Under the pieces are notes generated by a model, which was not told the origin of the DNA, ran no database searches, and saw nothing but the letters and a program-made list of their open reading frames with translations. A stretch of 45,072 nt of DNA. It comes from Archangiaceae bacterium (GTDB lineage: Bacteria > Myxococcota > Myxococcia > Myxococcales > Myxococcaceae). Of this stretch, positions 15,189-27,756 are shown piece by piece; position 1 is the first letter of the stretch, and each line of letters begins with the position of its first letter. The translations under genes and the position numbers were made by a program. The DNA lies in NCBI GenBank assembly GCA_016879935.1, contig JAACJQ010000125.1, positions 1 through 45,072 of the forward strand. Direction: 5' to 3'.

Positions 15189-16637
15189 ATGGACGTGCGC
15201 TGTCCAAGATGTCAGTCGGAATACGAGCTCGACGACGCTCGCGTCACCGACGACGGCGTCACCGTGAAGTGCTCCGAGTGCGCGCACGTCTTCCGCGTGA
15301 AGAAGAAGTCGCTGGTGATGACGCTGCCGGTGCGTGACGAGCAGGCGGCCGCAGCGGTCTCGGCGCCGTTGCCTCCGACCGCCGTTCATCGCGAGTGGAA
15401 GGTTCGGCAGCCGAACGGCAACATCTACCTGTGCCGCGAGCTCACGACGCTCCAGAAGTGGATCATCGAGCGCAAGGTTGGCCGCGACGATGAGATCTCG
15501 CTGACCGGCGAGACGTGGAAGCGGTTGGGCAACATTCCCGAGCTGGCGAGCTTCTTCCAGGTGGTCGACGACGCCGCGAAGGGCCGTGCCTACGAAGCGA
15601 TTCGGGCGAGCCAGGTCGACTTGCCGGCCGTGCAGCCGCCACCTCCACCGCCGCCCTCGATTCCACCGGGCGCGCGCATTCACGAGACGTGGAAGGAGCC
15701 GAACTTCTCGGTGCCGGCCGAGCCCGCGTTGCCGCCGCTCCCGCCTCCGCCGCCTGCGCTCGACCCGCTGAAGGAGACGATCAAGGCGCCGTCGTTCAAG
15801 ACGCCTCCGCCGCAGCCGTCGTTGCCGAAGCCCGCGTCGCGCCCGTTGCCGCAGGTCGAGCCCGTCGACGAGAAGGATCTCGAGAAGGCCGTTCGAGGCG
15901 GTGGGGGCTTCAAGTGGCTGGTGCTGATTCTCGGTGGGTTGTTGGTCGGTGGCGGCGCTGGCTACTACTTCGGGTTCTACGAGCCGGAGCAGCAGGCGAA
16001 GGCCGATGCCGAGCGCATGGCGGCGCAGAAAGCAGCCGAAGACGCCGCGCGGGTGAAAGCCGAGCAGGAAGCGGCAGCCGCGCGCGCGAAGCTCGAGGCC
16101 GAAGCGAAGCAGCGTGAGCTCGAGGCGCTGGCCGATGCGGGGGTTGCCGATGCTGGCGCCGACGCGGGCGTTCACGATGCGGGCGTCGTTGATGCCGGAG
16201 TTCCCGATGCGGGCGCGGCTCCGATCGCCGCCACGGTCGATGCAGGCACCGCGAAGGTCGCGACGGGAGCACCTCCCGGCCGCTCGTACGATTTCTACAT
16301 GGAGCGTGGTGACGCGCTTCGTGACGCCGAGAAGCCGAGCTCCGCGCTGAGCTTCTACGGCAAGGCGGCCGATCTGAAACCCGATCGCGTCGAGCCCGTC
16401 GTGGGTCGCGGCTTTGCGCTCTTCGACATGGGGCAGATGCTGCAGGCCGAGGCCTCGTTCGAACAGGCGCTGCGGCTGAACGGCAAGTACGGCCCCGCGA
16501 TCATGGGCATGGCCGAGACGCTCAAGGCGCAGGGGAAGAAGGCGCGCGCCATCGAGTACTACCAGCGGTACCTCGATGAGCACCCGACCGGCTCCGAGGC
16601 GAACGTCGCGCGCAACGCCATCGAGCGTCTGAAGTAG
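15189..16637 (+). CDS. Zn-ribbon / GYF-like / membrane-anchored TPR protein
   Basis: A 482-residue protein. An MJ0042 Zn ribbon opens it (MDVRCPRCQSEY; Cys5, Cys8, Cys28, Cys31), then a GYF-like domain (about 62-125: EWKVRQPNGNIYLC, GETWKRLGNIPEL), a long Pro-rich linker, one membrane segment (about 241-262), an Ala/Glu/Lys coiled coil, an Asp-Ala-Gly repeat tract (about 316-355) and C-terminal TPR repeats (about 365-480: DALRDAEKPSSALSFYGKA, QAEASFEQALRLNGKYG). The ATG at 15189 places the Zn ribbon at the start; a much longer open frame upstream is noise. The layout parallels the GltJ-like protein at 6887-8584 but replaces the TonB-like end by TPRs. An envelope scaffold or signalling role is inferred. 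The WD40-like gene follows after 2 bp. Confidence 0.82.
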   Translation: MDVRCPRCQSEYELDDARVTDDGVTVKCSECAHVFRVKKKSLVMTLPVRDEQAAAAVSAPLPPTAVHREWKVRQPNGNIYLCRELTTLQKWIIERKVGRDDEISLTGETWKRLGNIPELASFFQVVDDAAKGRAYEAIRASQVDLPAVQPPPPPPPSIPPGARIHETWKEPNFSVPAEPALPPLPPPPPALDPLKETIKAPSFKTPPPQPSLPKPASRPLPQVEPVDEKDLEKAVRGGGGFKWLVLILGGLLVGGGAGYYFGFYEPEQQAKADAERMAAQKAAEDAARVKAEQEAAAARAKLEAEAKQRELEALADAGVADAGADAGVHDAGVVDAGVPDAGAAPIAATVDAGTAKVATGAPPGRSYDFYMERGDALRDAEKPSSALSFYGKAADLKPDRVEPVVGRGFALFDMGQMLQAEASFEQALRLNGKYGPAIMGMAETLKAQGKKARAIEYYQRYLDEHPTGSEANVARNAIERLK

Positions 16638-16639
16638 CG

Positions 16640-17500
16640 ATGAAGATCCGCGCGCGGGTGAAGGCTCACACCGCGAAGGTGACGGCGCTCGCGTTCGCTC
16701 CCGATGGCAAGACGTTGGTGAGCGGCGGCGAAGACGCATCGTTGGCCTGGAGCGACGTAGCGAAGAAGAAGGTCGTCGCGAGGACGGCGCTCGGCGAGTT
16801 CAATCCACATGCGCTCTCGCTGGCCGCGCTCTCGGCCGAAGACGTGTGGCTCACGAAGTTCCCGCATCCGCGCGCGCGGGTGCAGCACTACGGCAGGGCG
16901 CGACTGATCGCCGAGCTGGGCAAGAGTCATCTGGCGTTCGCGCAGGTGCGCGTGTCGAAGAACCGTCGTGCCGGGCTGAGCGGTGGAACGAAGAAGGGCC
17001 TGTTCGTCTGGGACGTCGCCGCTTCGAAGACGACGGGAGTGTTGCCTGGTCTGCGTGGCGCGTCGGATTCGTTCGAACTCTCTGCTGATGGAACTCGCGC
17101 GGTGACACTCGGGTACACGAATCACCGACTCACGTGCTGGGATCTCGAGTCGTGCAAAGCGCAGTGGGCCGTCGACACCACCAGCTCCGGAGCAGTGGCG
17201 TGGTCTCCTGATGGGCGAAGCGTCATCGAGTGCGCTGACGATTTGATCGCCCGGTCGTCGGAGACAGGATCGAAGCGGTGGTCACAGTCCCGTGTTCACG
17301 GCGCGCCGTTTCTCGCGTGGCCGAAGGCTGACCGGATCATCGCGGCGTCGCGCTCGGCTGTGAGGGTCGTTCGAGGGCGCGATGGTGAAGTGGTCGAGGA
17401 GTTCGAACTGGTCTCTCGCGGAACGGCCTTCGCCGTGAGCGACGATGGGTCGGCGATCGCCGTGGCCGATGAAGAGGGCGTCGTCTCGCTGATCTGGTGA
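16640..17500 (+). CDS. WD40-repeat-like beta-propeller protein
   Basis: A 286-residue cytoplasmic protein made of WD40-like blades: KVTALAFAPDGKTLVSGGED near the start, DSFELSADGTRAVTLGYTNH with CWDLES in the middle, GAVAWSPDGRSVIECADD, and GTAFAVSDDGSAIAVADEEG at the end, finishing in LIW. About seven blades would fit the length. It starts 2 bp after the stop of the Zn-ribbon/TPR protein, so coupled expression and perhaps interaction are likely. A second propeller-type gene is paired in the same way with ftsK (9742-11595). No enzymatic domain is present, and the partner and process are unknown. Confidence 0.78.
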   Translation: MKIRARVKAHTAKVTALAFAPDGKTLVSGGEDASLAWSDVAKKKVVARTALGEFNPHALSLAALSAEDVWLTKFPHPRARVQHYGRARLIAELGKSHLAFAQVRVSKNRRAGLSGGTKKGLFVWDVAASKTTGVLPGLRGASDSFELSADGTRAVTLGYTNHRLTCWDLESCKAQWAVDTTSSGAVAWSPDGRSVIECADDLIARSSETGSKRWSQSRVHGAPFLAWPKADRIIAASRSAVRVVRGRDGEVVEEFELVSRGTAFAVSDDGSAIAVADEEGVVSLIW

Positions 17501-17542
17501 CCGCTGGACGGCGATTGTCGAAGTTGGCTATCGAGTCGCGCC

Positions 17543-18181
17543 ATGCGCGCGTTCTTGATGCTGCTGGTGGTTCTCGCCGGGTGCGGCCGGTCTGACATCG
17601 GCGAGACGGTGCCGACGCAGACGACGCCGCAGCCGGTGGTGAGCTGCAAGTCGACGTGCACGAGCGCTCCGTCGGGCATCGCGACGCCGCTGAACCTCAC
17701 GGCCGGTCGCCCGCTGCATTGGCAGACGTGTGCTGGCTGCGTTCGCGTCTCGTACGACGCGGCGTTGACGCCTTCGGAGGCGCTCGATCTGTATGCGGCG
17801 GTGAAGGCGTGGAAGCTCGCGGCGGGTGACAGCCTGTGTCTGTCGATGGACATGACGGCGTCGGCACCGCTCACCGAGACCGATCGGCAACGCATCTTCG
17901 TGAAGCACGCTGATCCACGAGCTGATCAGGCGAGCCTCACCACCATCACGTTCGATCAGTCGACGGGGCAGATGCTGCAGGTGCAGGTCGAGTTCGGAGC
18001 GTCGCTCCCGGTCGATCGCCAGCTCGCTTCAGAGCTCGGCCGTGCACTCGGGCTCGTGACGGGACCGGAGGGCCAGAGCGCGGTGACGCCCAACCCGAAG
18101 GGGCTGACGGCTCCAGGGTCGGCCGATCAGACGACCCTGCGCGCGATGTACGGCGACAAGCCGTGGTGCAGCCCGCGCTGA
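17543..18181 (+). CDS. Lipoprotein with decayed metzincin-like motif
   Basis: A 212-residue exported protein. The signal peptide MRAFLMLLVVLAGC ends in a good lipobox (Cys14). After a Cys-containing N-terminal region (CKSTCTS, WQTCAGC), the second half resembles a matrixin/metzincin-type zinc metalloprotease by layout: a strand TTITFDQSTGQM, then SELGRALGL at 163-171 where active enzymes have HELGHALGL, and a late TTLRAMYGDKPWC recalling the end of such domains. Both zinc-binding His of the HExxH core are replaced (Ser163 for the first, Arg167 for the second), so if related it is inactive, perhaps a binding protein. The general annotation is a lipoprotein of unknown function. It converges on the gene at 18194. 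Confidence 0.7.
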   Translation: MRAFLMLLVVLAGCGRSDIGETVPTQTTPQPVVSCKSTCTSAPSGIATPLNLTAGRPLHWQTCAGCVRVSYDAALTPSEALDLYAAVKAWKLAAGDSLCLSMDMTASAPLTETDRQRIFVKHADPRADQASLTTITFDQSTGQMLQVQVEFGASLPVDRQLASELGRALGLVTGPEGQSAVTPNPKGLTAPGSADQTTLRAMYGDKPWCSPR

Positions 18182-18205
18182 AGACCTGAGCGTTCATTTC
18201 AGCGC
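18175..18205. terminator. Inverted repeat between convergent genes
   Basis: A perfect 8-bp inverted repeat (GCGCTGAA at 18175-18182, TTCAGCGC at 18198-18205) with a 15-base loop spans the stop codons of both convergent genes. It could stop transcription in both directions, but no T run follows, so the call is tentative. Confidence 0.4.
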
Positions 18206-18553
18206 TTCAAGCTGGGCGAGCAACTCCTCCAGCGACTCGTCACCTGGCCACTGGCCGAGCATCGCTGCGAGACCGCCTCGGGGCTCTGCCTCACGTGCCG
18301 GGCGAACACCAAAGACAGCCACGTCGGTCTCGGATGCCGGCTCGATCCAGTCGGCGTCGATGTGGCTGACCTCATCCGAGGGCCCGAGGCTGGCGCGCCC
18401 CTCGACGAGCACTTGTCGGGCGAAGCCGTCGCGAAGCTCGTCGAGCGGCGCACCCGATCCGCTGACCCGAATTCCGTTGCCGAGCACCAAGGTGAACTCG
18501 CCGGTGGCGTGGATTGAATCCAGCCGGCCGGCGAGTCGAAGCATACGAGTCAT
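18194..18553 (-). CDS. Hypothetical protein with antitoxin-like C-terminal tail
   Basis: A 119-residue protein with a well-placed ribosome-binding site (GAGGAGG about 6 bp before ATG 18553). The first two thirds look like a small beta-rich domain (MLRLAGRLDSIHATGEFTL, then QVLVEGRASL). The C-terminal tail LGQWPGDESLEELLAQLEAL resembles the short helical motif (WPGDE...EELLAAL) found at the ends of antitoxins paired with PIN-type toxins, where it inserts into the toxin. No toxin-like gene adjoins it: upstream is an unrelated 219-residue helical protein. It could therefore be an orphan antitoxin, or the motif may be a general protein-binding tail. The family resemblance is from memory and not tested. 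Confidence 0.55.
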   Translation of the reverse strand: MTRMLRLAGRLDSIHATGEFTLVLGNGIRVSGSGAPLDELRDGFARQVLVEGRASLGPSDEVSHIDADWIEPASETDVAVFGVRPAREAEPRGGLAAMLGQWPGDESLEELLAQLEALK

Positions 18554-18612
18554 GCGGAGCCTCCTCTGAATCGGCGTCAGACGAGTGTTGGCCCCGGGCC
18601 TGAACGGGATGC

Positions 18613-19272
18613 TCAGGTCGGTGCGGGCGCCTTGGGCTTCGGCTTCGGGCTGGAAGGCAGCACGCGGTCGAACAACTCGGCATCGCTGGCGGGCAACGCC
18701 AGTCTCGCGATCGAAGCGAGCAGCGTGAGTTTCTGCGCGAGGCGCTCCACCGCGGCCTTGAGCTGCGCCGTCGCCTGCTTCGACGTCAGCTTCTTCGCCT
18801 CCTGGTCGGCGTCGATATCGGCGATCGACGTGAGGTAGCCCTGAATGCGGGTCAGATCTTCCGCCAGCACGCCCATCGTCTGCGTCTCACTCGGGTACGT
18901 GTTGGCCGCCGCGAGAATGCCGGCGAGTGCGCTCGAGACCGTCTTCACCGAAGGTGTGAAGCGGGCTCCGACGCCGAAGGCGCGCCAGAGCTGCTTGTTC
19001 TTCGGAGCCCCGCGCCGCACGAGCTCGCGAATCGTCGACACCATCACCGCGCCCTCACGCACCGCCACGTCCTGCGACACCGTCGCGGCTTCCTTCTGGC
19101 TGCGACTCGCGGGCACATCTCCGCTCGCACGCGCGATGTCGGCATCGGTCTTGAGCCCATCGAAGAAGCCCGCCGGAAGCCGCGGCTCCAGCTTCGGAAG
19201 GAAGCCCTTCGACAACTCGAGAGCCTGTGAAGCCGCCCGCGCCGCGTTCCCCGCATCCCACCTATTCGCCAT
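18613..19272 (-). CDS. Hypothetical, predominantly helical protein
   Basis: A 219-residue protein with no signal peptide or membrane segment. The ATG at 19272 follows a GGGGGA ribosome-binding site; the frame remains open to 19362. It is rich in Ala, Leu, Lys and Gln with long helical stretches (ARAASQALELSKGFLP, AVERLAQKLTLLASIARLAL) and ends in a Lys/Pro tail (SPKPKPKAPAPT). I do not recognise the family. It lies 59 bp upstream of the antitoxin-tail gene on the same strand and may share its message. Upstream of it is the repeat-containing tract that borders the defence genes. Confidence 0.6.
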   Translation of the reverse strand: MANRWDAGNAARAASQALELSKGFLPKLEPRLPAGFFDGLKTDADIARASGDVPASRSQKEAATVSQDVAVREGAVMVSTIRELVRRGAPKNKQLWRAFGVGARFTPSVKTVSSALAGILAAANTYPSETQTMGVLAEDLTRIQGYLTSIADIDADQEAKKLTSKQATAQLKAAVERLAQKLTLLASIARLALPASDAELFDRVLPSSPKPKPKAPAPT

Positions 19273-19369
19273 GTGTGTTTCCCCCAGGGTGAAAACTGCG
19301 GGCCGCAAAATACCGAAGCCATTCAACTTCGCGGAAGGCCCCGGGTGGGATGAGGTAGTCACGGGGAAG

Positions 19370-19705
19370 ATGTTTCCGAGCGCGGGAGTGGCTCAGACGT
19401 TCGCGGACCAGCTTCGCCCGTCTGCGGACCTGCGCTCGACCAACGCGGACATGTGCTCGACGAACGCCGATAGACCCTCGACGTCTGCCGACCTGGGTGC
19501 GTCCGGTTTCAACATCGAATCGACCCGTGACGACCTGCTCGAGGTGAGCGCGGCCGAGCTCGCAGCGTCTGTCGCACCTGCTGAGGAGCAGGCCGCCCTT
19601 GTTCTGACGGCCGCGGGAAGAGTTGAGCTGGTTGACCGTGCGGCCAGGTCGAATCCACGGGCCCTCCCTGCTAGGACGCGTCGCTCCGAGGCCCTGAGTG
19701 ATTGA
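19370..19705 (+). CDS. Possible short protein with heptapeptide repeats (uncertain)
   Basis: An open frame of 111 codons (MFPSAGVAQTFADQL...) in the 425-bp gap between divergent genes. It encodes about five copies of a 7-residue repeat with consensus Ala-Asp-x-x-Ser-Thr-Asn, followed by an acidic helical stretch (DDLLEVSAAELAASVAP). Third codon positions are mostly G/C, as in real genes here. It overlaps the start of the DUF4365 gene by 8 bases, which would fit coupling. Against it: the ribosome-binding site is poor (GGGGA only a few bases away), the opposite strand is also open, and the frame continues antisense into the upstream gene. It may be a relict. Confidence 0.25.
   Translation: MFPSAGVAQTFADQLRPSADLRSTNADMCSTNADRPSTSADLGASGFNIESTRDDLLEVSAAELAASVAPAEEQAALVLTAAGRVELVDRAARSNPRALPARTRRSEALSD
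19403..19507. repeat. 21-bp degenerate tandem repeat, about five units
   Basis: Units begin at 19403, 19424, 19445, 19466 and 19487, each with GCGGAC or GCCGA at the start and CTCGACnAAC-like ends (for example 19424-19444 and 19445-19465). The 21-bp period is a multiple of three and keeps a heptapeptide in the plus frame. The tract marks the left edge of the restriction/defence cluster. Confidence 0.7.
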
Positions 19706-20204
19706 GCTGACCAACGACCTGAAGTCCGAGTTCAGCATCGCCTACGTGAGTGCGATCGCCCACGCCGGTGGCTACTTCGTTCAACTGCCCAATCGAATGC
19801 GCGACGGCGACGGTGTCGACATCGAGATCTTTCAGCGAGGCGGTGGCGGAGTGGTTCGGGGGCCGCGTCTCGATCTGCAGTTGAAGGCGACCGCGAAGGT
19901 CCCCGAGACCGACCCGTTCTTCATCGACCTTCCCCTCAAGAACTACACAGAGCTGATCTCGGTGGACCATCAGGTGCCGCGCATCCTCGTCGTCATGCAG
20001 GTACCAGAGGATCGCGCTGACTGGGCGACGGCATCGCCGGAGCAGCTCGTCTTGAGACAGTGCGCGTGGTGGTTGTCGCTGCGGGGCGCCAACGATTCTC
20101 AGAACGACGCCACTCAACGCGTGTGGGTGGCCAAGAAGAACGTATTCAGCATGACTGCGCTGGAGGCGATCATGACGAAGATTCGTCTGGGAGGTTTTCC
20201 ATGA
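19698..20204 (+). CDS. DUF4365 family protein (PD-(D/E)XK-like)
   Basis: A 168-residue protein from GTG 19698. It has the pattern I associate with DUF4365: an N-terminal helix (Glu11), then DGDGVDIEIFQ with Asp41, a strand LDLQLKAT with Gln61-x-Lys63, the loop DLPLKNYTEL, a strand PRILVVMQVPED and the later LRQCAWWLSLRG. The Asp...Gln-x-Lys arrangement is a variant of the PD-(D/E)XK nuclease core, so a nuclease is plausible but unproven. It overlaps the next gene by 4 bases (ATGA), which makes the two a likely functional pair. The pair sits directly before a Type I restriction-modification operon, where DUF4365 genes are often seen; a defence role is inferred. Confidence 0.78.
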   Translation: MIELTNDLKSEFSIAYVSAIAHAGGYFVQLPNRMRDGDGVDIEIFQRGGGGVVRGPRLDLQLKATAKVPETDPFFIDLPLKNYTELISVDHQVPRILVVMQVPEDRADWATASPEQLVLRQCAWWLSLRGANDSQNDATQRVWVAKKNVFSMTALEAIMTKIRLGGFP

Positions 20205-21346
20205 CGGGCATCTGGGTGTCACAGGCCTCGGCCGTTCCATCGCCAACCGACGTCGCGGCCTATCTGCGCCAGCACGGCTGGGCTCTGAAAAAAGCCGACA
20301 CCGACTGGAGCTTCTTCGAGAAGGACCTCCAGGGAGAGCAGGTGGTTCTCGAGGTTCCGCAGCGGGCCTCGACGACGTCCTACTCACGGCTTCTCGCGAC
20401 GCTGCTCGATGACTTGTCACGACTCGAGGCGCGTCCTCCTGCGGTCGTGCTGCGCGACGTGCGCTCATCGACCATCGATGTCGTGCGCATCGGAATCGAG
20501 AGCAGCCTCACGCGTGATGGGCGCATTCCGCTCGAAGCAGGCCATCAGGTCTACGACGCGACGCGCGACCTCTTCCTGGCCGCGGCGTGCTCTGCACTCG
20601 ACCCGCGCCCGGCGTTCTCGAACCGCAAGCCAGAGGAGGCACTCAAGCTGTTGTCGTCGTCCGCGCGCCTCGGACAGACCGAGTTTGGGAGTTTCGTCGT
20701 CACCCTCGAGTGCTCGGTTCCTCCGCTCCTCCAGAGTGAATTCCTCTTGGGGGCGCAGGCTGACGAACCGCTGGTTCGCAGAGCGACGACGATGCTGGCG
20801 CGCGGGTTGGCGGCGACGCAGACCGCCGCGCGGCTCGCGGCCATCGATGGCTCGCTGAAGCACTTCTCGGAGCGCGCCCCAGAGGGCTTGAGCGCGAACC
20901 TCTGCGAAGCGGTTGCCGAGTTGCTCGAGGTGACGCTCGCTGAACGGCTGGTCACGGGAGTGTCCTTCGCTCCGACCCGCCAAGTCGCTCCGACGCTTCC
21001 CCGGGCGACGGTCTTCAGCCCGGACATCGTCCCCACGCTGCGGAGCGCCGCGGCCTCGCTTCGAGAGGTGGCCAGTTACCCAGACGTCGAGTTCCTCGGG
21101 CGGGTGGTGAAGCTCGACAGCACCAACCCGACCGAGGGCGGCACCGTGACACTGCGGGGGGAGGTCGAGGGCCGGCAGCGCTCCGTGCGCGTCACCCTCA
21201 GCAGCGGCGACTACAAGACGGCCGTCGAAGCCCACAAGAACTCGCGGCTCATCGCTGCGCAGGGAGCACTTCATCGCGACGCGAGCGCCTGGGTGCTCAA
21301 GCAGCAGCGGCGCTTCGATGTCGCCGAAGACGCTGAAATGGCCTGA
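20201..21346 (+). CDS. Unknown protein coupled to the DUF4365 gene
   Basis: A 381-residue protein (ATG 20201, ribosome-binding site GGGAGG 6 bp upstream, 4-base overlap with the DUF4365 stop). Its parts look like: an N-terminal alpha/beta segment (DVAAYLRQHGWALKKADTDW, then VVLEVPQRA), a Val/Arg-rich central stretch (VVLRDVRSSTIDVVRIGI), a helical middle with paired Arg/Ala helices, and a C-terminal beta-rich domain (VEFLGRVVKLDSTNP, TVTLRGEVEGRQRSVRVTLS) reminiscent of an OB-like or small barrel fold. There is no Walker motif, signal peptide or membrane segment. I do not recognise a named family. Translational coupling to a nuclease-like partner and proximity to hsdM suggest a two-gene defence or DNA-modification module, or an accessory of the Type I system. 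Confidence 0.65.
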   Translation: MTGIWVSQASAVPSPTDVAAYLRQHGWALKKADTDWSFFEKDLQGEQVVLEVPQRASTTSYSRLLATLLDDLSRLEARPPAVVLRDVRSSTIDVVRIGIESSLTRDGRIPLEAGHQVYDATRDLFLAAACSALDPRPAFSNRKPEEALKLLSSSARLGQTEFGSFVVTLECSVPPLLQSEFLLGAQADEPLVRRATTMLARGLAATQTAARLAAIDGSLKHFSERAPEGLSANLCEAVAELLEVTLAERLVTGVSFAPTRQVAPTLPRATVFSPDIVPTLRSAAASLREVASYPDVEFLGRVVKLDSTNPTEGGTVTLRGEVEGRQRSVRVTLSSGDYKTAVEAHKNSRLIAAQGALHRDASAWVLKQQRRFDVAEDAEMA

Positions 21347-21418
21347 CCGGCGGTTTCTTTCGACAACCTGCCTGCGCCCGAGTCTCATGCGCGTCCGCCG
21401 TTCACAGGGGACACGAAC

Positions 21419-23157
<1,739 letters not shown>

Positions 23158-23161
<4 letters not shown>

Positions 23162-24516
23162 GCCTTCCTCGATATCCCAGATACAAAGAAAGTGGCATCG
23201 AGTGGTTAGGTCAACTGCCGGCTCATTGGAGTGTCAGCAAGTTGAAGCGTGAGGTTTCGGCGGACCGAGGCATCACATATGGCATCGTCCAAGCCGGCCC
23301 CCACCTTCCTGAGGGGGTGCCCTACATTCGCCCCGCGGACATGACTGACGAACATGGCGTCGTGGACCTCGAGAGCATGCTGCGGACGGCGAATGAGATA
23401 GCGCAGAGTTACAAGCGAAGCGCGCTCAAGCCGGGCGATCTCGTCTGTTCGATTGGCCCGAGTTTTGGAAAGGTGATGGTCGTGCCGGACGCTCTAGACG
23501 GCGCAAATCTCACCCAGGGAACAGCTAGGATCGCCGTTGCATCAAAGAACTCACCGCGCTTTGTCTTCTGGTTTCTCCGTTCATCCCAGTCGATGGCTCA
23601 ATGGGAAAGCTCAGTGGGCGGGGCGACGTTCAGATCGTTAAACCTTGGGCCGCTTGCCGAGACCTCGCTCCCCCTGCCTCCCAAGGATGAGCAGGCCGCA
23701 ATCGCCTCATTTCTAGATGGCGAGACGTCGAAGATCGATGCGCTGATCGCCGAGCAGGAGCGGCTCATCGAGTTGCTCAAGGAGAAGCGCCAAGCGACCA
23801 TCTCCCACGCCGTCACCAAGGGGCTGAACCCCATCGCTCCAATGAAGGAGTCGGGCATCGAATGGCTCGGTCAGATCCCTGCTCACTGGCGACTGCTTCG
23901 GGCAAAAACTGCTTCGGTCTTCTCCACAAGCGGGCCGCGCGGTTGGTCAGACCGTCTTGGAGCGGGTGAAGACATGTTTGTTCAGAGTGGTGATCTTGTG
24001 GATGGCAAGGTCGACTTCGCAGAGGTGGCCCGCGTTGCTGCCGGTAGCGAGGCTGAGGCCATTCGGACGCGACTGGAGATGGGGGATGTGCTTGTTTGCA
24101 TAACTGGCGCAAAAACTGGAAACGTCGCCTTGTGTGTCAGCAAGCCGCCGCGGGCCGCCTACATCAATCAACATCTGTGTCTTCTGCGTCCAAATATTGA
24201 GTTGCTCGAAGGGGCATTTGCTTCCGCCGTTCTTCGTAGCGACTTGGGTTGCAGGTACTTCGAGCTATCCCAATACGGTCTAAAACAAGGTCTGAGTCTT
24301 GACGATGTTAGGAATGCGCCTGTCCCAGTTCCTCCGCTTGGTGAGCAGAAGCGGATACTGGAGTTTGTCGACTCGACGGAGCGGCAGGTGAACTCCTTGG
24401 TCTCCGAGTCGCGGCGGGCAGTTGAGCTACTTGTTGAGCGCCGAGGCGCACTGATCTCTGGAGTAGTGACTGGGCAGATTGATGTTCGCGAGACGTCGAT
24501 GAGGGGTCTTGGATGA
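23158..24516 (+). CDS. hsdS: Type I restriction-modification specificity subunit
   Basis: The S subunit (452 residues, GTG start overlapping the hsdM stop) determines the bipartite target. It has the normal two half-repeats: each half starts with a near-identical segment ([14 protein letters not shown] at 11-24, [14 protein letters not shown] from about 231), followed by a variable target-recognition domain and a conserved helical spacer ([13 protein letters not shown], then [16 protein letters not shown]; second copy [25 protein letters not shown]). Base composition inside the recognition domains is visibly less G/C-rich than in hsdM and hsdR, as expected for exchanged specificity modules. 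It overlaps a 42-codon ORF at its 3' end (ATGA). The recognised sequence cannot be predicted. Confidence 0.96.
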
Positions 24517-24641
24517 GCGCCATTTCGAAGACTATTAAGGTTCTGTCCGGCGGAGGTCTTCGGGGGATTCGTATCGCCAAGAACACACGAATCGTTCACG
24601 TCATCGATACACTGCGCATGGTCGGGAGCGAAGCGGAATGA
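24513..24641 (+). CDS. 42-residue ORF coupled between hsdS and hsdR
   Basis: This frame ([15 protein letters not shown]... ending RMVGSEAE) starts in an ATGA overlap with the hsdS stop and ends in an ATGA overlap with the hsdR start, so it exactly fills the space between them. Two 4-base overlaps in the right frames make chance unlikely. The product is basic and compact, with a Gly-rich turn (LSGGGLRGIRIAK) and a Val/Ile strand (RIVHVIDTLRMV), suggesting a small beta-containing protein. I do not recognise it. It may be a small regulator or inhibitor of the restriction complex, or simply a leader whose translation delivers ribosomes to hsdR. Its composition is like hsdS, slightly lower in G/C than hsdR. 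Confidence 0.6.
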   Translation: MSAISKTIKVLSGGGLRGIRIAKNTRIVHVIDTLRMVGSEAE

Positions 24642-27600
24642 GCCTGCACAAGGAAATCAGCTTCGAAGACGAGGTCTGTGAGTACTTGAAGGTTCATGAC
24701 TGGCTGTACTCGGTTGGCGATGCGACCGACTACGACCGTGCTCGGGCGCTCTTCCCGACCGACGTGCTCGGCTGGGTCCAGGCCACGCAGCCGACCGTGT
24801 GGGAGACGCTCACGAAGAATCACGGCAGCAAGGCGGCGGTCACGGTGCTCGACCGGCTCCGCGCCGAGCTGAACCTGCGTGGCACGCTCGACGTGCTCCG
24901 CAATGGCATCGACCTGCTCGGTCTCAAAGAGCCTCTCAGGCTCGCGCAGTTCAAACCCAGCCTTGCGATGAACCCCGACGTCATCGCCCGCTACCAGGCC
25001 AACCGCCTGCGGGTGATTCGTCAGGTGCACTACTCGCTCAACAATCAGAACGCGCTCGACCTGGTGCTGTTTCTCAACGGCGTCCCCGTCGCCACCGTCG
25101 AGCTGAAGACCGACTTCACGCAGTCGGTCGCCGATGCCATCGCGCAGTACCGCTACGACCGCGTGCCGCACCCCAAAGGACAGGCCGCCGAACCGCTGCT
25201 CAGCTTTCCGAACGGAGCCCTCGTTCACTTCGCGGTCAGCAACTCCGAAGTGCACATGACGACGAAGCTCGAAGGCGGAGCGACGGCGTTTCTGCCCTTC
25301 AACCAGGGCAACGAGGGCGGAGCGGGCAACCCTCCGAACCCGAACGGCCACCCCACCGCGTTCCTCTGGGAGCGGGTCTGGGCGCGCGAGAGCTGGCTCG
25401 AGATTCTCGGGCGCTACCTCATCGCCAAACGCGACAAAAAGAAGCAGATCACCAACGTTCTCTTCCCGCGGTTCCACCAGCTCGACGTCACCCGCAAGCT
25501 GCAGACGGCCGTGTTGAAGGATCCGCCCGGCACGAAGTATCTGGTGCAGCACTCGGCGGGCTCGGGGAAGACGAACTCCATCGCGTGGACGGCGCACTTC
25601 TTCGCCGAGCTGCACGACGCGGCGATCAAGAAGGTCTTCGACTCGGTCATCGTCGTCTCCGATCGCAACGTCATCGACGACCAGCTGCAGGAAGCCATCT
25701 TCGACTTCGAGCGCACCACCGGCGTCGTCGCCACCATCACCGGAGAGGCCGCCAGCAAGAGCGGTGAGCTGGCCGAGGCGCTGTCGGGCGCGAAGAAGAT
25801 CGTCGTGTGTACGATTCAGACGTTTCCGTTCGCGCTCAAGGCCGTGCGCGAGCTGGCCGCGACGAAGGGCAAACGGTTCGCCGTCATCGCCGACGAGGCG
25901 CATAGCTCTCAGGCCGGCACCGCGGCATCGAACCTGAAGCTCGTGTTGTCAGCGGCCGAGCTGGCCGAGGTCGAAGACGGCGGTGAGGTGAGCGGAGAGG
26001 ACATTCTCGCGGCCCAGATGGCGGCGCGCGCCGACGACAACGGCATCACCTTCGTGGCCTTCACCGCCACGCCGAAGAACAAGACCATGGAGCTGTTCGG
26101 CACACGGCCTGATCCGTCGCGAAAGCCGGCTCCCGACAACGTGCCGACGCCGTTTCACGTGTATTCGATGCGCCAGGCCATCGAGGAGAAGTTCATTCTC
26201 GACGTGCTCAAGAATTACACGTCGTACTCACTGGCCTTCAAGCTCGCGCAAGAGGGCAAGGAGGTCGACGAGCGCGAGGTCGAGCGCAGCGCCGCAGTGA
26301 AGAAGATCATGAACTGGGTGAAGCTCCACCCGGTCAACGTGTCGCAGAAGGTGCAGATCGTCGTCGAGCACTACCGCGACAACGTGGCTGGTCTGCTGAG
26401 CGGCAAGGCCAAGGCGATGGTGGTGGTGAGCAGCCGCCGCGAGGCCGTGAAGTGGAAGCTCGCCATCGAGAAGTACATCAAGGAGCGCGGCTACCAGATC
26501 GGCACCCTCGTCGCGTTCTCGGGCGAGGTCTTCGACGAGGAGTCAGGCCCCGGGCCGTTTACCGAACACAGCCCGTCGATGAACCCGAAGCTGAAGGGCG
26601 ACATTCGCAAGGCGTTCGAGGGCGGCGAGTACCAGGTGCTGCTGGTGGCCAACAAATTCCAGACCGGCTTCGACCAGCCGCTGCTGTGCGGAATGTACGT
26701 CGACAAACGGTTGGCCGGCATTCAGGCAGTGCAGACGCTGTCGCGGCTCAATCGTGCCTACCCGGGGAAGGACACGACCTTCGTCCTCGACTTCGTGAAC
26801 GAGCCGAACGAGGTGCTCGAGGCGTTCAAGCTGTACTTCACGACCGCCGAGCTCGCGACGACGACGGACCCGAACCTGGTGTTCAACCTGAAGGCCAAGC
26901 TGGACGCGGCCGGGCACTACGACGAGTTCGAGGTCGACCGGGTGGCGAACGTGGTGATCGACCCGAAGTCGAAGCAGGGCGATCTGATTGCGGCCGTGAC
27001 GCCGGTGGTCGACCGGTTGATGAAGCGGTTCAAGCTCGTGGCCGAGGCGAGGCGGGCCGCGAAGGAGAAGGGCGACCCGGCGGCGGTGAAGGAGGCTCAG
27101 AGCGAGCTCGATGCGTTCACGCTCCTCAAGTCGGACATGACGGCGTTCGTGCGGCTGTACACGTTTCTGTCGCAGATCTTCGACTACGGCAGCACGGGCA
27201 TCGAGAAGCGGGCGCTGTTCTACAAGGCGGTGCTTCCGCTGCTGGAGTTCGGCCGCGAGCGTGAGGAGATCGATCTCTCGCAGGTGAAGCTGTCGCACTA
27301 CTCGCTGCGGGACCGGGGCATCGCGCCGATGGTGCTCGGCGAGGGCAAGCCGAAGCTGGAGCCGCTGACCGAGGCGGGCAGTGGCAGCGTGCAGGAGCGC
27401 CAGAAGGCGAAGCTGGCGGTGATCATCGAGAAGCTGAACGAGCTGTTCGAGGGCGAACTCTCGGAGGGGGATCAGCTGGTCTACGTGCTCGATGTCGTGA
27501 AGGGGAAGCTCCTCGAGTCGGCGACGCTGGTGGAGCAGGCGAGCAACAACTCGAAGGAGCAGTTCGGCAGCTCGCCGGACCTGACCACCGAGATTCTGAA

Positions 27601-27745
27601 CGCGGTGATCGCGGCGCTCGATGCGCATACGGCGATGAGTACGCAGGCGCTGAACTCCGAGCGGGTGCGTGATGGCATCAAGGACGTGCTGCTGAACCAC
27701 GGGGAGCTGTGGGAGAGCCTTCGTGCGAAGGCCGCGGGCGGGTAG
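24638..27745 (+). CDS. hsdR: Type I restriction endonuclease subunit R
   Basis: The R subunit (1035 residues) translocates DNA with ATP and cuts it. The N-terminal nuclease core shows Asp141 (LDLVLF) and Glu155-x-Lys157 (VATVELKTDF) with the trailing QYRYDR motif. The helicase motor has Walker A HSAGSGKT (305-312), motif II DEAH (419-422, followed by SSQ), motif III TATP, and later FQTGFDQPLLCGMYVDKRL and QTLSRLNRAYPGKD, which match the SF2 C-terminal lobe. The C-terminal helical region that binds HsdM/S follows. All motifs appear intact. It starts in an ATGA overlap with the small ORF, and its stop lies only 11 bp before gatC. Confidence 0.97.
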   Translation: MSLHKEISFEDEVCEYLKVHDWLYSVGDATDYDRARALFPTDVLGWVQATQPTVWETLTKNHGSKAAVTVLDRLRAELNLRGTLDVLRNGIDLLGLKEPLRLAQFKPSLAMNPDVIARYQANRLRVIRQVHYSLNNQNALDLVLFLNGVPVATVELKTDFTQSVADAIAQYRYDRVPHPKGQAAEPLLSFPNGALVHFAVSNSEVHMTTKLEGGATAFLPFNQGNEGGAGNPPNPNGHPTAFLWERVWARESWLEILGRYLIAKRDKKKQITNVLFPRFHQLDVTRKLQTAVLKDPPGTKYLVQHSAGSGKTNSIAWTAHFFAELHDAAIKKVFDSVIVVSDRNVIDDQLQEAIFDFERTTGVVATITGEAASKSGELAEALSGAKKIVVCTIQTFPFALKAVRELAATKGKRFAVIADEAHSSQAGTAASNLKLVLSAAELAEVEDGGEVSGEDILAAQMAARADDNGITFVAFTATPKNKTMELFGTRPDPSRKPAPDNVPTPFHVYSMRQAIEEKFILDVLKNYTSYSLAFKLAQEGKEVDEREVERSAAVKKIMNWVKLHPVNVSQKVQIVVEHYRDNVAGLLSGKAKAMVVVSSRREAVKWKLAIEKYIKERGYQIGTLVAFSGEVFDEESGPGPFTEHSPSMNPKLKGDIRKAFEGGEYQVLLVANKFQTGFDQPLLCGMYVDKRLAGIQAVQTLSRLNRAYPGKDTTFVLDFVNEPNEVLEAFKLYFTTAELATTTDPNLVFNLKAKLDAAGHYDEFEVDRVANVVIDPKSKQGDLIAAVTPVVDRLMKRFKLVAEARRAAKEKGDPAAVKEAQSELDAFTLLKSDMTAFVRLYTFLSQIFDYGSTGIEKRALFYKAVLPLLEFGREREEIDLSQVKLSHYSLRDRGIAPMVLGEGKPKLEPLTEAGSGSVQERQKAKLAVIIEKLNELFEGELSEGDQLVYVLDVVKGKLLESATLVEQASNNSKEQFGSSPDLTTEILNAVIAALDAHTAMSTQALNSERVRDGIKDVLLNHGELWESLRAKAAGG

Positions 27746-27756
27746 AACCCCGCTCC

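Follow-up and report, generated by a model that had tools for sequence, protein, structure and literature searches.

A candidate two-gene defence module, PDC-M02, at a variable site of an Archangiaceae genome: predicted domains, compact natural forms and a possible mechanism

Two overlapping genes, here called A and B, lie immediately upstream of a type I restriction-modification (R-M) operon in an Archangiaceae bacterium (Myxococcota; GenBank assembly GCA_016879935.1, contig JAACJQ010000125.1), and their position raises the question of whether they belong to that operon or form a system of their own, and how such a system might work. The whole stretch of DNA analysed, hereafter the window, comprises positions 1 to 45,072 of the contig. 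A first-pass annotation of its sequence had taken A for a nuclease-like protein and B for a partner without a recognisable family, and had proposed that the two constitute a defence module. In outline this proposal is sound, and the module turns out to be catalogued already. In PADLOC-DB version 2.0.0, A matches PDC-M02A (PDLC04278) with E 1.8e-48 (residues 5-164 on positions 5-163 of the 167-residue profile), and B, which has no family in Pfam or NCBIfam and is thus an orphan in these two databases only, matches PDC-M02B (PDLC04298) with E 3.3e-96 (residues 14-377 on positions 15-376 of 380). With near-full-length matches to both profiles, and with adjacent genes on one strand in the order of the catalogue, the window pair departs from PDC-M02 in nothing, and its sequence marks it as an ordinary further member of this two-gene phage-defence candidate. 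PDCs are putative phage-defence candidates derived from 'guilt-by-embedding' and are mostly untested (PMC12988326, PMC10855318). What is new here is the domain reading, a compact form, a shared insertion site and a testable mechanism, PDC-M02 itself having been catalogued before.

The two genes share four nucleotides (ATGA) on the same strand, in the coordinates and reading frames first reported for them. An overlap of this length is present at 28 of the 36 loci where it could be measured, which is far beyond chance; the measurement used the B start codon nearest to the A stop, a choice that favours overlaps in general and not the length of 4 nt specifically.

Protein A matches the Pfam family DUF4365 (E 2.2e-22), and the residues Asp41 and Gln61-x-Lys63, on which the nuclease assignment had been based, are correctly placed, so that motif, family and predicted fold agree. 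This D/Q/K triad is intact in every complete A protein aligned (28/28 and 21/21 in two MAFFT alignments). In an alignment fitted to a hidden Markov model, seven rows apparently devoid of Asp41 are one-column slips, with the Asp printed one column off, and five further rows without triad residues are truncated copies. The AlphaFold2 (AF2) model of A has a predicted local distance difference test score (pLDDT) of 86.8. A Foldseek search with it against the PDB gave 13 matches at E <= 0.001, all of them chains of SPARDA, i.e. short prokaryotic Argonaute with DREN/DUF4365-APAZ (best E 2.3e-7). The second aligner, VIA-align, superposed A on SPARDA chains with Z 10.6-13.0 and a root-mean-square deviation (rmsd) of 3.4-4.3 over 133-143 residues, all within the nuclease region of these chains (about residues 3-151); the next resemblances are to Hjc Holliday-junction resolvases (Z 7.8-10.2) and I-Ssp6803I (Z 8.7). 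By sequence, no relative of A was recovered among solved structures. In NbaSPARDA, D41, Q60 and K62 are given as catalytic, the equivalents of which in the window are Asp41, Gln61 and Lys63 (PMC12205087), and for TmuRE-Ago, a complex of DUF4365-APAZ and prokaryotic Argonaute, a QK mutant is reported to be unable to cleave DNA (PMC10810196). The model thus predicts A to be a stand-alone DREN-type PD-(D/E)XK nuclease with a fold like that of the SPARDA enzyme. In contrast to SPARDA, A (168 aa) does not extend beyond the nuclease domain and carries no fused APAZ, and none of the 8 proteins scanned from 16640 to 27745, B being one of them, matches Piwi or Argonaute. As far as these genes go, the pair does not qualify as a SPARDA system, yet by analogy it may work like one.

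For B (AF2 pLDDT 83.9, predicted template modelling score 0.70), the model begins with an N-terminal domain of a helix, three strands and further helices, which is followed by a helical middle part and then by a beta barrel at the C-terminus. VIA-align places SSB, PriB, RPA and HIN-200 structures on the barrel (Z about 7-9, rmsd 2.3-4.1 over 69-87 residues), which is accordingly predicted to be of the oligonucleotide/oligosaccharide-binding (OB) type. As Foldseek returned nothing from the PDB for B at E <= 0.001, this reading rests on the second aligner and on the consistent class of folds that it recovered. The earlier suggestion that the beta-rich C-terminus could bind nucleic acid fits such a predicted fold. 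The N-terminal domain aligns with 1whz (Z 8.2, rmsd 2.4, 70 residues), a structure that itself matches an annotated HicA protein in sequence (E 0.00039). When 48 N-terminal domains of B were compared with 18 HicA proteins by hhalign, the score was 23.0 (probability 45%), while 100 column-shuffled decoys reached at most 12.1 and the reversed comparison 8.7. B and HicA toxins may share the predicted fold of this domain and a GW-containing sequence register. They differ in that in B the domain is linked to a helical region and an OB fold, and window B has TDW where the GSH motif of HicA aligns. The His of the GSH motif is catalytic in HicA toxins. Since the motif is missing, we take B to lack RNase activity, and its N-terminal domain is likely to be related to HicA in fold, a relationship that is unproven in descent.

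Other identities considered for B were set aside. That B is itself a nuclease was suggested by a weak match to UPF0102 (E 0.022), which had no single stretch that passed and was not repeated by any of 28 further B proteins; this reading was rejected. No APAZ- or Argonaute-like row appears among the structure matches listed for the B model, an absence that excludes nothing. The top VIA-align row, SilF (Z 9.6), is a small beta-barrel that we read as an OB-type fold and not as a hint of metal handling. Among solved structures, B had no relative by sequence either, the best matches (E 0.28, ribosomal L21, and E 0.46) being dismissed.

The core of B is indicated by a natural compact form of the pair in cyanobacterial plasmids (L095:5477-6516 and plasmid hits H34-H50). 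On a Calothrix plasmid a complete A of 165 aa (PDC-M02A, E 1.6e-58) overlaps a B of 181 aa, which holds the N- and C-terminal domains only, without the helical middle. At least 80% of the length of this compact B is covered in 17 of 21 matching plasmid records, the listed records of this kind belonging to Nostoc, Tolypothrix, Calothrix and Microchaete. Half of the listed plasmid matches (10 of 20) touch a gene annotated DUF4365, and the 4-nt overlap recurs in three annotated examples of the compact pair. PADLOC models cover the compact B mostly as separate pieces, over part of the profile. Because the compact protein keeps only these two domains, the core of B would be the HicA-like domain plus the OB fold. 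B without its middle also occurs in mini forms in three Myxococcota genomes (L039:9757-10454, L040:9572-10269, L041:9731-10282), where A is reduced to about 33 aa in the first two and was not detected in the third; these look like decay or another variant.

The pair is sporadic, mobile and tightly coupled. Of 195 Myxococcota genomes, 16 contain B and 13 contain A at E <= 1e-10; each of the 14 strong A matches in this set lies directly 5' of a B match. Among Pseudomonadota, the phylum of a Hyphomicrobiales relative, 10 of 398 genomes have B (the centre genome included), and 14 named control genomes have neither A nor B. Relatives on plasmids come from Alpha- and Betaproteobacteria, Spirochaetota, Bdellovibrionota, Bacillota, Actinomycetota and Cyanobacteriota. 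Viral records contain them as well: B is carried by 26 IMG/VR contigs, as found with a subset of 8 B proteins (an alignment of 29 being too diverse for the scan), and in two of these (L071, L072) terminase genes lie a few kb from the pair, and two prophage records of Mycobacterium abscessus match both A and B, the pair forming genes 1 and 2 of the M. abscessus prophage prophi102-2 (L175:398-2160). Phage records were matched by queries P0004 and P0002 only, two other queries giving none.

A complete or nearly complete A stands directly upstream of B at 52 of 64 non-redundant loci, including two (L037, L073) where one of its ends is cut or shifted. A partial A precedes B at five, either at a contig or record edge (L044, L093) or in broken or reduced form (L025, L074, L039), and at the remaining seven no A is recognised by profile (L040, L041, L051, L057, L067, L078, L125). 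At L057:7630-7962 A is disrupted by a transposase-like gene, the reading frame of which continues into the last residues of A, with B intact, and L047, which represents the same locus as L125, has retained only the tail of A. The reverse case, an intact A with a truncated B, is seen at L038 and L129, the latter possibly an assembly or frameshift effect. As a separate observation, the pair at L032:9331-11246 has a GC content at third codon positions near 0.5, compared with 0.8-0.9 in many neighbouring genes, a sign of recent transfer.

Does the pair then belong to the R-M operon beside it? As first described, it precedes a type I R-M operon: hsdM begins after a gap of 73 bp, and hsdM, hsdS and hsdR are all present according to both Pfam and PADLOC models (Table 1). 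Pair and operon together occupy a variable insertion, the state of which in congeners was followed through loci L167, L168, L169, L170 and L173. In G151 and G152 the site is empty, the gene that ends at window position 16637 and gatC being about 20 bp apart, and G153 has a short gap there. In G154 the site is taken by a type I R-M system that shares about 25% identity with that of the window and in which a PDC-S06 protein is embedded. In G150 PDC-M04A and M04B accompany a type I R-M system, the two ends of the site lying on separate contigs; the piece fetched from G149 does not settle its state. Given these empty, PDC-S06-bearing and PDC-M04AB-bearing states, different defence sets alternate at the gatC site. 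G153 carries the pair elsewhere, with 92% DNA identity over window positions 19556-21400 (the pair and short flanks), ending just before hsdM, and the part of its contig that was examined gave no hsd match, so that the pair appears to move independently of hsd. A dedicated tie to this hsd operon is not supported, and we read the neighbouring operon as a separate system that shares the defence site with the pair.

Table 1. Coordinates of the gene pair, its predicted parts and its surroundings in the window.
Feature	Position	Strand	Basis and remarks
M02A (open reading frame A), DUF4365 / predicted DREN-type PD-(D/E)XK nuclease-like protein, 168 aa	19698..20204	+	GTG start, TGA stop at 20204; open reading frame, Pfam, PADLOC, AF2
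M02B (open reading frame B), partner protein, 381 aa	20201..21346	+	ATG start, TGA stop at 21346; open reading frame, PADLOC, AF2
Asp41 codon, predicted metal ligand	19818..19820	+	Asp41 in 28/28 and 21/21 A proteins (two MAFFT alignments)
Gln61-Leu62-Lys63 codons, predicted catalytic QxK	19878..19886	+	Gln61 and Lys63 in 28/28 and 21/21 A proteins (two MAFFT alignments)
M02B N-terminal domain, about residues 15-100, tentatively HicA-like / dsRBD-like, without the HicA catalytic His	20243..20500	+	VIA-align, hhalign
M02B middle helical part, about residues 101-292, missing from natural compact forms	20501..21076	+	AF2 model; cyanobacterial plasmid B
M02B C-terminal OB fold (predicted), about residues 293-374	21077..21322	+	VIA-align
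hsdM, type I methyltransferase (neighbour, outside the pair)	21419..23161	+	N6_Mtase E 3.9e-60, HsdM_N E 7.5e-28
hsdS, specificity subunit (neighbour)	23158..24516	+	Methylase_S E 1.4e-18, two stretches
hsdR, restriction subunit (neighbour)	24638..27745	+	HSDR_N E 1.3e-13, SWI2_SNF2 E 1.5e-18
Variable insertion that contains pair and hsd operon, flanked by a gene with its end at 16637 and by gatC	16638..27756		Congener comparison; right edge approximate; about 11 kb

Elsewhere, too, the pair is found among defence genes and occasionally inside an R-M operon. At L122 hsdS is followed by two genes of 272 aa and 452 aa and then by A, B and hsdR, and the 452-aa gene (L122:5127-6485), which matches AbiJ and PDC-M01A, is possibly a further embedded defence gene. 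At L124 hsdS lies directly 5' of A, IetA and IetS adjoin the pair at L029, and a type III Res gene stands beside it at L064. The arrangement at L122 resembles that of DarTG2, a module of unrelated proteins embedded between hsdS and hsdR in the RptR island of enteropathogenic Escherichia coli (PMC12255303); the window pair differs in preceding hsdM. In a scan of neighbouring genes, 149 models had a match in 128 genes, compared with 6 models (of one member each) in 126 control genes. The scan covered 128 of 147 chosen neighbours (leaving out one spurious open reading frame of the window and 18 neighbours of L039-L041), the genes were obtained by simple calling and some are spurious, and the listed matches, which refer to the first 25 models, are mostly cross-matches of HsdS, with 3 members. 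The controls were taken from the same genomes, in which 20 regions were picked arbitrarily (140 genes chosen, 128 aligned, two long ones dropped). The enrichment of defence neighbours is suggestive, and the embedded cases and the hotspot weigh more. At L123:11245-12240 a gene for an RtcR-like AAA regulator adjoins A; its model was matched by 2 of the 128 scanned neighbours.

We propose that A and B form a mobile anti-invader module in which a DREN nuclease is run by B as its dedicated nucleic-acid-binding regulator, a reading that we consider equally apt to prove right or wrong. In NbaSPARDA the isolated DREN domain is described as a monomer without detectable activity, the enzyme being active as a tetramer (PMC12205087), and A alone would likewise be largely inactive. 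The catalytically dead HicA-like domain of B, its helical insertion and its OB fold would together bind nucleic acid associated with the invader, single-stranded DNA being a first guess. B would then gather several A subunits and so switch on metal-dependent DNA cleavage, by which activated A would harm the invader or abort the infection. Sequence and survey establish the pair, its coupling, the intact triad and a sporadic, mobile occurrence at defence sites. We infer that B binds nucleic acid, that A is activated through oligomerisation, that it attacks DNA and that the module serves defence; the triggering nucleic acid, the multimerisation of A and the choice between collateral and targeted cleavage are drawn from SPARDA by analogy. 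If a DREN effector is indeed run by a small guide-free nucleic-acid binder, defence effectors would be re-used with different sensors, and the trigger of this simple pair could be sought directly. A catalogue entry without a described mechanism also gains concrete predictions, namely catalytic residues, domains and a minimal natural form. In the literature searched, DREN nucleases figure as the effector half of Argonaute systems. The bolder view that PDC-M02 is an Argonaute-free relative of SPARDA, with the same DREN effector and one HicA-like/OB protein that senses without a guide and drives DREN assembly, is doubtful, and we put it forward tentatively. If true, the minimal form of such a sensor-nuclease would be found in cyanobacteria, the compact pair of which (A about 165 aa, B about 180 aa) would amount to a guide-free collateral nuclease of two proteins.

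Several points weigh against the proposed module. The literature searched yielded no anti-phage activity of PDC-M02, nor any paper naming it, and two other PADLOC candidates that were tested in a native host had no effect (PMC12409345). The residues that make the DREN tetramer of NbaSPARDA (E13, N17, R20, Q29, D31, R33 and E45; PMC12205087) are without demonstrated counterparts in A. The folds of both proteins are predictions, and for B middling VIA-align Z values are frequent for small domains; its link to HicA is weak by sequence (the hhalign probability given above), with no Pfam HicA match listed for 29 B proteins. Most of the neighbourhoods sampled are devoid of hsd genes: the Hsd proteins of the window have no match among the genes called in 17 other Myxococcota loci and in L003, so the tie of the pair to hsd is occasional. 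Finally, B is kept where A is broken or lost, by a frameshift (L025), by an insertion sequence (L057), by interruption (L074) or altogether (L125), and since B outlives A at these loci, it may act alone.

The same four loci speak for a toxin-antitoxin or addiction pair, in which B would hold a toxic nuclease A inactive and thereby serve the persistence of the element, or abortive infection once B is lost or displaced. Two small coupled genes on plasmids and prophages would suit such a pair, as would the resemblance of the N-terminal domain of B to HicA. Yet B is large and its HicA-like domain lacks the toxin's His, the lone DREN domain of NbaSPARDA is inactive in the account cited above, and the asymmetry of four loci against two is unconvincing, because an intact A beside a truncated B also occurs (L038, L129). 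We regard this explanation as rather unlikely, and still less probable is targeted restriction, in which B would recognise modified or foreign DNA and A would cut only that, in the manner of a two-subunit type IV or a junction-cleaving enzyme. The likeness of A to Hjc resolvases and I-Ssp6803I and the predicted OB fold of B are consistent with it; however, SPARDA effectors are closest to A by both aligners, and family model searches found no known base-recognition domain in B.

That the pair serves this type I R-M system as accessory subunits, a regulator or an anti-restriction valve, is suggested by its place before hsdM, by its position between hsdS and hsdR at L122 and by hsdS next to A at L124. 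We judge it very improbable in view of the pair of G153, with the 92% DNA identity given above and no hsd match on the stretch examined, and of the 18 other scanned loci, none of which has homologues of the window's Hsd proteins. Hardly credible at all is a housekeeping nuclease of DNA repair or recombination, for which the Hjc-like fold of A and an OB partner could be cited. The first-pass annotation had named a housekeeping set without defence enrichment as the finding that would count against a defence role; what the survey revealed is a pair of sporadic occurrence (the Myxococcota and Pseudomonadota counts above), on mobile elements, with decayed copies, empty sites and some copies within R-M operons. 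The regulated DREN module is the preferred reading. As a minor feature of the locus, a 21-bp tandem repeat (2.1 copies, 86%) lies at window positions 19424-19467, in the non-coding stretch 5' of A.

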